64,000 bases of DNA from the NCBI RefSeq assembly GCF_023155855.1, contig NZ_JAKNUT010000005.1, positions 248,001-312,000 on the forward strand, given 5' to 3'. The stretch comes from Microbacterium aoyamense. Lineage in GTDB: Bacteria; Actinomycetota; Actinomycetes; Actinomycetales; Microbacteriaceae. The notes below the pieces were generated by a model. The model had not been told where the DNA came from. It did no database searches and saw only the letters and a list, made by a program, of their open reading frames with translations. Of the stretch, positions 9,097 through 11,864 are shown piece after piece. Position 1 is the stretch's first letter, and every line of letters starts with the position of its first letter. The position numbers and the translations under genes were made by a program.

Positions 9097-10101
9097 ATGA
9101 GCAAACCCCGTCTGTACTCCGGCATGCAGCCCTCGGCCGACTCGCTTCAGGTCGGCAACTACATCGGGGCGCTCATGCAGTGGCGGGATCTGCAGGAGGC
9201 GTACGACGCGTTCTTCTCGGTCGTCGACCTGCACGCGCTCACCCAGCCGAACGATCCGGCCGAGCTGCGCGAGAAGACCCGGCGCACGGCCGCGCAGTAC
9301 ATCGCCGCCGGCATCGAGCCGTCCAAGTCGACGCTGTACGTGCAGTCGCACGTGCCGGCGCATCCCGAGCTCGCGTGGATCCTCTCGACCATCACGGGCT
9401 TCGGTGAGGCCGGACGCATGACGCAGTTCAAGGACAAGTCGTCGCGGTACGGCGCCGACACGACCTCGGTCGGGCTCTTCACCTACCCGATCCTGATGGC
9501 GGCCGACATCCTGCTGTACCAGACCGACATCGTGCCGGTCGGCGACGACCAGAAGCAGCACGTCGAGCTCACCCGCGACCTGGCCGAGCGCTTCAACGCG
9601 CGGTACGGCGAGACCTTCAAGGTGCCGATGCCCGTCATCCAGCAGGACACCGCGCGCATCTATGATCTGCAGAACCCCACGGCGAAGATGTCGAAGTCGG
9701 CGGAGTCGGATGCCGGAACCCTCTGGCTTCTGGACGACCCGTCCGTCTCGGCGAAGAAGGTCATGCGGGCGGTGACCGACTCGGAGGGGGCGGTGCGCTA
9801 CGACCGCTCCGAGAAGCCGGGGGTCTCGAACCTGCTCGTGATCTATGCGGCGCTGACCGGCCGGCAGATCCCGTCGATCGAGGACGAGTACGCGGGCCGC
9901 GGCTACGGCGACTTCAAGAAGGGTCTCGCCGAGGTCGTCGTCAACGAGTTCGGGCCTGTGCGCCAGCGCGCGCTGGATCTGCTCGACGATCCTGCCGAGC
10001 TCGACCGGGTGCTCGCGGCGAACGCCGCGAAGGCCGAGGCCGTCGCCGACGCGACGCTCGACGACGTCTACGACAAGGTCGGCTTGCTCCGCCGCCGCTG
10101 A
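9097..10101 (+). CDS. trpS: Tryptophanyl-tRNA synthetase
   Basis: Class I aminoacyl-tRNA synthetase that charges tRNA-Trp. 334 residues, normal length for the bacterial enzyme. QPSADSLQVGNYIGAL near residues 8-23 is the HIGH-type ATP-binding region, and AKMSKSAES near residue 201 is the KMSKS loop. PVGDDQKQHVELTRD is the conserved tryptophan-pocket segment. TAGACT at 9085-9090 lies exactly 6 bases before the ATG, consistent with a leaderless transcript. It is separate from other translation genes here. It is the only trpS in the window. Confidence 0.96.
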   Translation: MSKPRLYSGMQPSADSLQVGNYIGALMQWRDLQEAYDAFFSVVDLHALTQPNDPAELREKTRRTAAQYIAAGIEPSKSTLYVQSHVPAHPELAWILSTITGFGEAGRMTQFKDKSSRYGADTTSVGLFTYPILMAADILLYQTDIVPVGDDQKQHVELTRDLAERFNARYGETFKVPMPVIQQDTARIYDLQNPTAKMSKSAESDAGTLWLLDDPSVSAKKVMRAVTDSEGAVRYDRSEKPGVSNLLVIYAALTGRQIPSIEDEYAGRGYGDFKKGLAEVVVNEFGPVRQRALDLLDDPAELDRVLAANAAKAEAVADATLDDVYDKVGLLRRR

Positions 10102-10161: not shown

Positions 10162-10247
10162 GCGCACAACTCCTGCATTCCGACGCTCGACCCGGACGGA
10201 AGTATCCGAAGCGGCGAGGAACTGCACGGATTGCAGGAGTTGTGCGC
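10162..10247. repeat. Inverted-repeat element, copy 1 (downstream of the DUF559 gene)
   Basis: Perfect 16-bp arms GCGCACAACTCCTGCA (10162-10177) and its complement TGCAGGAGTTGTGCGC (10232-10247) enclose a 54-bp spacer. The right arm ends 5 bases from the stop codon of the DUF559-type gene. The same arms with a 53-bp unrelated spacer occur again at 11185-11269 on the other side of that gene. The rest of the 10102-10252 gap holds nothing else recognisable. Confidence 0.85.
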
Positions 10248-10252
10248 CGCCC

Positions 10253-11092
10253 TCAGGACCGCCGACCTGCGGCACGCCCCGCCCGTAGCGCGTCGCGGAG
10301 CACTTCCACGACCCATTCCGGGCGGTACAGGATGTCCTCCGCGAGCAGACGAATCGTCGAGAATCCCTGTCGTGCCGCCTCGGCGTCCCTTCGGCGGTCG
10401 CGCTTGTGCGCCTTCCAATCCGAGTGATGCGCCTCGCTGTCGCACTCGATGACGAGCCAGCCCCCGACCAGGAAGTCGACCCGACCGACAGCGGGAATGT
10501 CCACCTGCAACTCCGGCGACTCTCCGAGGCCTCGCAGGATGAGGCGCACGAGAGTCTCCGTGCCGGACTCGCTGCGCGGATCCAGATGGCGACGAAGCAC
10601 GTGGCAGCGTTGCGGCAACCGGGTGAAAACCTCGGCGATGCCTGCGTCATCGACCCAGCCCTGGTGCCACGCGCTGTCAAGCGACGCGATGGCCGCTCGC
10701 GGATCCTGGCACACGACGGCCTGCGCAAGCGCCTCGATCAGATCGGCATCGAGCCGGCCCGCCGGCGACGCGCTGTCGCGCCAATGACACACCACGCCGC
10801 TCGCACGGGCCGGCAGTCGACTGGCAGCGCGATCCGCCTGCACGTGCTGCCGCTGCGCGGAGCGGACGAAGATGCCCCTCTCGGCGAGGAGAGAGACGCA
10901 GTCCACGCGGACGCCCAAGGCCGCCGCCGCTCGAAACGTGGGCGTCACGTCCGCCCGGATGTATCGACCCTTCCGCACCCGAACCAGTCCGCCGCTCGCC
11001 ACGAGTCTGTCGATTCGGCTTCGACTGAGGCTCATCGCGCGCAGTTCGGCGTAGGTGTGGACGACGGGAGGTGGGCCAGGAACTCTCTTCAC
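10253..11092 (-). CDS. AbiEi-like wHTH plus DUF559/Vsr-type nuclease domain protein
   Basis: 279 residues from a GTG at 11092; the start is uncertain, an internal ATG at 11037 being the alternative. An N-terminal winged helix (SLSRSRIDRLVASGGL, then VRVRKGRYI) resembles the AbiEi antitoxin domain. The C-terminal third has GRVDFLVGGWLVIECDS, HHSDWKAHKRDRRRD and a GFSTIRLLAEDIL tail, the D...ExD pattern of DUF559/Vsr-like PD-(D/E)xK nucleases. No partner toxin gene is adjacent. Such proteins are multicopy in Microbacteriaceae and their function is unknown. The gene is bracketed by two matching inverted-repeat elements. Confidence 0.72.
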   Translation of the reverse strand: MKRVPGPPPVVHTYAELRAMSLSRSRIDRLVASGGLVRVRKGRYIRADVTPTFRAAAALGVRVDCVSLLAERGIFVRSAQRQHVQADRAASRLPARASGVVCHWRDSASPAGRLDADLIEALAQAVVCQDPRAAIASLDSAWHQGWVDDAGIAEVFTRLPQRCHVLRRHLDPRSESGTETLVRLILRGLGESPELQVDIPAVGRVDFLVGGWLVIECDSEAHHSDWKAHKRDRRRDAEAARQGFSTIRLLAEDILYRPEWVVEVLRDALRAGRAAGRRS

Positions 11093-11184
11093 GACCCGAG
11101 GGTGCGCCGCGGAGCGGATTGTCCGTGGTCGATCGTGCGGGTCGGTGGAAGGGTTCCCGTGCGACTCGGGCTGGGGAGGAGTGG

Positions 11185-11269
11185 GCGCACAACTCCTGCA
11201 ATGTGGCGGCCGCGATCCACCTGGACCCATCAACCAGCTCCAACGCCGGGGTTTGCAGGAGTTGTGCGC
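11185..11269. repeat. Inverted-repeat element, copy 2 (upstream of the DUF559 gene)
   Basis: Same 16-bp arms as copy 1: GCGCACAACTCCTGCA at 11185-11200 and TGCAGGAGTTGTGCGC at 11254-11269, with a 53-bp spacer. The arms are identical in both copies but the spacers are not. That suggests the arms themselves are under selection or are the recognised part. It lies between the DUF559-type gene (start 11092) and the GNAT gene (start 11307). Confidence 0.85.
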
Positions 11270-11306: not shown

Positions 11307-11864
11307 ATGCAACCGGTCACGCTGCGCACGGAGCGACTCGTGCTGTCGCTCCCGACGGCGGGTGACATCGATGAGATATACGCGGCCTGTCAGGATCCCG
11401 ACATCCAGCGCTATACGACGGTTCCGTCGCCCTACGAGCGGAAGCACGCCGAAGGGTTCGTGCCGCACGTCGCGACGAGCTGGCAGGCCGGCACCGAGCT
11501 GACGTGGGCCATCCGCGACGGATCGACCCTCGCGGGGCTCATCGGGCTCTACCGCGTCGCGAACGGCGCAGGCGAGATCGGCTATTGGATGGCGCCGGAG
11601 TCCCGCGGCCGCGGCCTGCTCACGGAGGCAGCCCTCGCGGTCGTGGACTGGGGCTTCGACGAGCTCGACCTGCAGCGCATCGAGTGGCGCGCGGTCGTCG
11701 GCAACACCGGTTCGGCGCGCGCTGCGCAGAAGCTCGGATTCACCTACGAAGGGATGCTGCGCCAAGCGCTCAGCAGCCCGCGCGGCCGCGACGACGGCTG
11801 GATCGCCGGGCTGCTCACGGATGACGACCGCACCCCGAAGCCCTGGCCGGTGCTCGAGGCCTGA
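11307..11864 (+). CDS. GNAT family N-acetyltransferase, RimJ/RimL-like
   Basis: 185 residues. LRTERLVLSLPTAGDIDEIY is the usual N-terminus of the RimJ/RimL-type branch. GEIGYWMAPESRGRGLLTEA carries the acetyl-CoA pyrophosphate loop (RGRGLLTEA), and IEWRAVVGNTGSARAAQKLGF is motif B. The substrate may be a ribosomal protein N-terminus or a small amine; the sequence does not say. TAGCCT at 11295-11300 precedes the ATG by 6 bases, suggesting a leaderless message. It is a single gene between the repeat element and the Fpg-type gene. Confidence 0.88.
   Translation: MQPVTLRTERLVLSLPTAGDIDEIYAACQDPDIQRYTTVPSPYERKHAEGFVPHVATSWQAGTELTWAIRDGSTLAGLIGLYRVANGAGEIGYWMAPESRGRGLLTEAALAVVDWGFDELDLQRIEWRAVVGNTGSARAAQKLGFTYEGMLRQALSSPRGRDDGWIAGLLTDDDRTPKPWPVLEA

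Follow-up and report, generated by a model that had tools for sequence, protein, structure and literature searches.

In a REPtron (TnpAREP/RAYT with REP/BIME), a nuclease gene is flanked by its own dispersed family of intergenic repeats, and these repeats vary from host to host, coevolving with the gene. The nuclease is of the HUH (Y1) type, and the repeats are hairpin palindromes with a guide tetranucleotide. The antitoxins AbiEi of S. agalactiae and Rv2827c of M. tuberculosis each bind inverted repeats of 23 bp and act as repressors of their own operons; the operator repeats lie 3 bp and 13 bp apart, respectively, and only at the promoter (PMC7319586). The EDxHD homing endonuclease I-Bth0305I is reported to dimerise on a target of nearly 60 bp (PMC3943268). 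Caulobacter VsrA, a DUF559 protein, is linked to a cytosine methyltransferase and mismatch repair, and the available portion of that report mentions no bracketing arms (PMC12907096).

The locus described here lies in a 64,000-nucleotide stretch of the genome of Microbacterium aoyamense, hereafter the window, and resembles each of these systems in part. Like a REPtron, it pairs a predicted nuclease gene with a dispersed family of intergenic repeats of its own that also stands on both sides of the gene, but the protein is AbiEi/Vsr-like by Pfam and fold with no HUH/Y1 motifs found, the repeats are separated, phased arms on double-stranded DNA with free interiors, and no copying of whole elements was observed in the principal family examined. 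The fold of residues 11–171 is shared with the AbiEi antitoxins, and by analogy binding to inverted repeats would be expected; the differences are that the protein is fused to a nuclease, that no abiEii toxin gene of an AbiE type IV toxin-antitoxin system adjoins (the neighbours read as TrpS-like and GNAT-like open reading frames), and that the repeats are 53–54 bp apart on both sides of the gene. The nuclease fold is that of I-Bth0305I and Vsr, and a long target and a putative dimer are further likenesses to I-Bth0305I, but the gene lies between two complete sites rather than in an intron or a target site. With Caulobacter VsrA it has the DUF559/Vsr-like nuclease in common. The initial annotation, made from the sequence, knew of no described system with this layout, and none was found in the open-access literature, although one may have been published elsewhere.

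Layout of the Locus

An exact search finds the 16-mer GCGCACAACTCCTGCA at four places in the window, as two inverted pairs around one gene, and no further copy is present there even when three mismatches are allowed (shuffled sequences average 0.65 matches). The element 3′ of the gene comprises an arm at 10162–10177 (+), a free interior of 54 bp at 10178–10231, and a second arm at 10232–10247 (−) whose end is 5 bp from the gene's stop codon. The element 5′ of the gene has arms at 11185–11200 (+) and 11254–11269 (−) around a free interior of 53 bp at 11201–11253. The two interiors are mutually unrelated, and the complementarity of the arms reaches 19–21 bp. Counted core to core, from AACTCC to GGAGTT, the 3′ and 5′ elements measure 74 and 73 bp, respectively.

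The enclosed AbiEi-like/Vsr-like (DUF559, MTES_1575) gene occupies 10253–11092 (−) and encodes 279 aa, as judged from the list of open reading frames, Pfam, and the predicted structure, with a GTG start that is probable from reading the sequence; the listed frame of 371 aa extends through the upstream element. A TrpS-like frame (9097–10101, +), whose C-terminal part has homologues in 29 of 30 relatives, stands as context outside the module, and a GNAT-like frame (11307–11864, +), supported by the list and by tblastn, is the context on the other side; both names are readings.

Domains and Fold of the Protein

Pfam searches of the window protein returned MTES_1575 (2.5e-7, below the cut-off), DUF559 (2e-4, above the cut-off), and AbiEi_4 (0.0015, below the cut-off). 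The AlphaFold model, built from a 27-row alignment, has a pLDDT of 94.5. Residues 11–171 of the model (10580–11062, −) resemble the AbiEi antitoxin 6y8q, with a VIA-align Z of 8.4 over 160 residues and a Foldseek E of 2e-5, and this match covers more than the winged helix-turn-helix (wHTH), taking in the domain that follows it. Residues 175–279 (10256–10570, −) match the catalytic domain of I-Bth0305I (3r3p, Z 15.0), NGO0050 (3hrl, 13.8), and Vsr (1cw0, 12.7); the rows of the fold search are mainly nuclease-domain matches, among which the absence of other families carries no meaning. The residues E179, D206, E216, D218, H223, and D232 are invariant in all 76 proteins of the clade. The Vsr-like fold and these conserved catalytic residues place the protein among DUF559/Vsr-like nucleases, for which catalysis is predicted. 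Assignment to a defence family was rejected, as searches with the window protein gave only weak AbiEi (5.4e-5) and helicase-associated matches in PADLOC and none in NCBIfam.

The initial annotation had described four identical 16-bp arms with unrelated 53–54-bp spacers and one gene between them, all of which is exact, and had assigned to the protein an AbiEi-like wHTH and a DUF559/Vsr-like fold, with which the predicted structure agrees, the AbiEi match being wider than the wHTH.

Brackets around Related Genes

The layout in the window is one case of a wider rule, in which related genes are bracketed by paired inverted arms of their own sequence. Brackets were scored as the best set of four matching arms, with one inverted pair upstream and one downstream, at a threshold of 45. 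This score is reached by 55 of the 76 clade genes (close relatives), by 7 of 11 distant paralogues (27–33% identical), by 12 of 24 genes outside the genus, and by 57 of 80 loci of named genomes, a set that overlaps the 76 clade genes. The corresponding shuffles never reach it (0/1,520, 0/220, 0/480, and 0/1,600, respectively; 0/2,220 for the first three sets together), and random genomic intervals do so in 3 of 1,498 cases. The 21 clade genes under the threshold include L039 (42) and L051 (44), both of which were judged bracketed by eye; the brackets of L059, L065, and L022 are likewise visible by eye, and in these five the arm sequence varies from gene to gene. Convincing brackets were not found at L067 and L073.

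An earlier test with exact words had found brackets at 51/76 clade genes and 5/11 distant paralogues against 7/4,350 shuffles, with 234/2,000 for swapped flanks, a rate that arises because many arms have AACTCC in common. At one locus, represented by 50 genes, the left and right flanks of the same species match in 37 of 50 cases versus 124 of 976 mixed-species pairs, and hence the two sides of a bracket change together. The genome of the window itself holds six paralogues, each with different bracket arms, so that mutually distinct systems coexist in one genome; two of the paralogues there, again with different arms, score 44 against shuffle maxima of 42 and 43. A second group of relatives (L264, L268–L270, L278, L279, L282–L286, L289, L292, and L293) carries TTCAGTC-type or GCAGGA-type arms in place of AACTCC.

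Geometry and Conservation of the Elements

The arms are non-palindromic 14–16-mers that stand 43–68 bp apart. In three arm families, 146 of 151 distinct elements, again measured from AACTCC to GGAGTT, fall into length classes of 63–64 bp (73 elements), 73–75 bp (37), and 85–86 bp (36), and the steps of 10–12 bp fit whole turns of B-DNA, that is, about 6, 7, or 8 helical turns. Brackets at genes are 72–75 bp long in 73 of 84 cases and 63–64 bp in 8, and the upstream and downstream spacings of a gene are equal within 1 bp at 58 of 62 genes, as compared with 31 of 600 shuffles. The 86-bp class carries a central palindrome, CCGCGnGATnnCGCGG, which is found in all three arm families (32 elements of that length, for example L193, L198, L199, and L200) and is absent from the shorter classes; it is possibly a third binding site or a cleavage point.

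When orthologous elements of the genomes G299 and G011 were compared, changed positions numbered 2/112 in the arms, the only count that includes L150, 24/196 in the interiors, and 153/712 in the flanks. The site shared by L150 and L151 has the same arms and a different interior, and at L143, L146, and L149 an element of G299 has no recognisable counterpart at the G011 site; site turnover between close species is high.

Among 90 elements of a single arm family, matching interiors are limited to tandem copies, orthologous sites, and a few exceptions, and the dispersed copies within one genome do not share them. The exceptions are one pair 2.2 kb apart (L147), a weak 19-bp inverted match (L036), and short matches between genomes. 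The pair in G299 (L147:8719-11029) is an exact duplicate of an element with ~2.1 kb between the copies, and beside the second copy stands a half element that stops near the central motif of the element, which is single in G011 (L154). From the sequence of this one case, a break at the centre of the element is possible.

Dispersed Elements and Their Cognate Genes

The 14-mer core of the arms is present in 12 of 58 relatives at up to 24 copies per genome, and the reversed pattern gave three single matches elsewhere. The paired arm pattern occurs in 29 of 366 genomes of the genus, in which the reversed pattern has no match, and a close relative of the window protein (E 1e-30) is found in 27 of these 29 genomes as compared with 207 of the other 337. 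The 16-mer is dispersed rather than limited to DUF559 genes, and on this point the reading in the initial annotation was not borne out as given. The genomes G009 and G003 carry dispersed arms where no clade gene is detected at E 1e-30; we make no claim of orphan repeats from these, and an assembly gap is likely in G009 because TrpS was also not found there. In the window's genome, the strict pattern occurs as four pairs, two bracketing the gene and two 94-bp pairs elsewhere, so that the length class of the window gene is confined to the gene in its own genome under this pattern. G225 and G373 have no arm copies beyond the gene. In G299, 94-bp elements bracket a gene whose product is 46% identical to the window protein in an alignment, on which ground its reading as a distant paralogue was dropped; by eye, the alignment places R88 and no G89 in this product, as its TGC arms predict.

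Six arm families were tested, and in each the pairs are present with the cognate gene and absent from all control genomes. The L051 arms occur at 4 places in G000, two of which are the brackets and a third of which, in coding DNA, is probably fortuitous, and in none of 14 other genomes; the L065 arms at 7 in G012, one of them at the gene, and in none of 14 others; and the L059 arms at 5 in G007, three of them at the gene, and in none of 14 others. All 10 genomes selected for the corresponding type of gene contain the CGAAACTCCTGA arms, with copies beyond the gene in 8 of them, and 0 of 10 controls contain the arms. The arms of L052, another paralogue of the window's genome, form 8 elements of exactly 66 bp, two of them at the gene (0/9 other genomes), and those of L315, from outside the genus, form 3 in G036, two of them at the gene (0/9).

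A rough gene caller placed 71 of 83 dispersed elements in intergenic DNA, 10 inside its gene calls, and 2 at edges. The gaps that hold them are tandem in 35, divergent in 21, and convergent in 15 cases against a background of 206/103/64, and there is thus no orientation or promoter bias. Several side features were noted. Elements occur in clusters of 2–4 tandem copies, and L034, L035, L038, and L041 (G026) are tandem arrays of 3–4 whole elements with similar interiors. In the TCGGAGAATGTC family, the 66-bp elements at G000:C14:320851-320916 and at seven more places contain a nested second inverted motif, GTCGG..CCGAC, and each half of such an element may hold two sub-sites. One family from outside the genus, at G036:C1:1875807, 1877061, and 2238617, differs from the Microbacterium families in being a near-perfect 50-bp palindrome with a shared interior.

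Covariation of Arms and Protein

In an alignment of 48 genes with AACTCC arms, loop residues 87–91 track the three bases that follow AACTCC. The triplets xGC and TCC go with R88, TCA with N or V at position 88, and TGA and GGA mostly with P88, while TCN and TTC arms go with G89. The corresponding loop of the window protein, residues 86–92 (ADRAASR; 10817–10837, −), has R88 and A89 at the positions that covary with arm bases +6 and +5. R88 is present in 26 of 29 genes when +6 is C versus 4 of the 41 others (Pagel LR 32.6, p 1.4e-6), and G89 in 26 of 28 when +5 is C or T versus 4 of 42 otherwise (Pagel p 1.8e-5); Pagel's test was run on all 70 genes with a tree of residues 100–279, and six control columns gave p values of 0.066–0.91. 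Because residues 88 and 89 had been chosen by scanning 231 columns, they were also tested in 22 held-out genes, each <92% identical to any training protein, which have relatives in the training set and in part among themselves: R88 occurs in 11/12 with C at +6 versus 1/10 without, and G89 in 8/8 with C or T at +5 versus 2/14 without.

By a partial Mantel test, each of the three protein regions, and not the DNA-binding ones alone, correlates significantly with arm distance, and no one domain is singled out. The bases before AACTCC vary as a module that combines with different 3′ triplets, and mutual information picks out wHTH residues for them, among which are 14, 18, 24, 41, and 44. The covariation of residues 88 and 89 with +6 and +5, which persists once phylogeny is corrected for and recurs in held-out genes, argues that the protein most likely reads the arms. 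Recognition of the arms by the protein, which the initial annotation had suggested, gains support here: on this comparative evidence the arms are almost certainly recognition sites, binding by the protein is very probable, and each protein probably recognises its own arm "address".

Proposed Mechanism and Alternative Explanations

We propose, with a probability of about 0.6, that the gene product is a self-addressed, site-specific DNA-binding nuclease that acts as a dimer across phased arms and regulates its own gene from the brackets. Computation shows the brackets, the private sequences of the arms, the quantised lengths, the conservation of the active site, and the arm–protein covariation; binding, dimerisation, and autoregulation are predicted from these. 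Taken with the inverted-repeat binding of AbiEi and Rv2827c and the dimerisation of I-Bth0305I, the phased arms, equal brackets, and covarying residues point to one protomer per arm, a dimer over the interior, and control of the gene by its own product from both ends. The AbiEi-like region of each protomer, the wHTH with its following domain, would bind one arm, and two protomers on two inverted arms, ~6, 7, or 8 turns apart, would lie on the same face of the DNA so that their Vsr-like nuclease domains could meet over the free interior. Sites upstream and downstream would allow tight self-control, with the promoter region blocked and the DNA looped across the gene. Further sites lie scattered through intergenic DNA of the genome, specificity and sites would change together from species to species, and, more speculatively, cutting and repair between arms may create or maintain the dispersed sites.

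The paired arms could instead be ordinary operators of an autorepressor that has kept a nuclease fold, the dispersed sites regulating neighbouring genes. Such a regulon would agree with the conservation of arms at orthologous sites, with their covariation with protein residues, and with the AbiEi-type antitoxins, which bind inverted repeats and autoregulate (PMC7319586); we consider it unlikely, since the gene has a bracket 3′ of it as well, all 76 clade proteins keep the active site unchanged, site turnover is high between close species, and the orientation of the gaps around the 83 dispersed elements is close to background. A promoter–operator regulon was set aside because the dispersed sites have no orientation preference, and a regulatory role there is unsupported for want of promoter bias. 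Mobile repeats of the REP/BIME kind, that is, non-autonomous units that the nuclease copies in the way TnpAREP is believed to copy REPs, would account for a bracketed gene with dispersed, species-private repeats, for the tandem clusters of 2–4 copies, and for one element in G299 that is missing at the orthologous G011 site. Against this decidedly improbable reading stand the interiors of the 90 elements of one arm family, unshared among the dispersed copies of a genome; a copied transposable unit was rejected for that family on this ground, as was a MITE or insertion sequence, for which a shared interior in dispersed copies was sought. The G036 family, where the interior is shared, may differ, and copying may occur there.

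RNA hairpins or bidirectional terminators whose stems are conserved would yield inverted repeats in intergenic DNA, but they fit poorly with lengths that step by about one helical turn regardless of arm sequence, with the lack of orientation preference, and with the covariation of the protein, and are highly improbable; an RNA family was also rejected, as the single Rfam match (E 0.53, 15.8 bits versus a gathering score of 60) lies away from the elements. GC-rich DNA often contains short inverted repeats, and yet an artefact of chance or composition in such intergenic sequence is refuted by the shuffle, random-interval, flank-swap, and reversed-pattern controls, all of which speak against it.

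If the product is a self-addressed nuclease, a bolder and rather doubtful extension is that it represents a widespread actinobacterial nuclease family with a private double address and an amino-acid/base code in the AbiEi-like loop, whose copies are written or maintained by cutting and repair between arms. Were this true, it would be a new class of self-addressed nuclease–repeat system with specificity readable from sequence, convergent with REP/RAYT but differing from it in fold, type of repeat, and route of spreading. The code relating residues 88/89 to bases +6/+5 makes the family directly testable and possibly engineerable, and provides a hypothesis for a large gene family annotated merely as DUF559 or AbiEi-like.

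Genomic Loci and Distribution

The 76 clade genes occupy few loci, with 50 in one cluster of neighbours, 17 in the trpS cluster, and 5 in a third, and these few conserved loci suggest mostly vertical inheritance. The idea of a mobile module was not borne out, given these few loci and interiors uncopied between dispersed sites. Both occupied and empty sites, for which the initial annotation had proposed a search, exist at trpS: among 29 relatives, 9 have the DUF559 gene there, 10 have trpS directly beside the GNAT gene and no DUF559 gene, and 10 have neither arrangement or a sequence that ends early. No homing event was seen, and no arms were found by eye in the ten empty trpS–GNAT gaps. A phage origin was discarded, as two peptide patterns revealed no relative in viral_contigs. 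Within the order, 64 of 149 genomes and 26 of 64 genera contain relatives, and the best 80 named loci all belong to Microbacterium or Microbacteriaceae.
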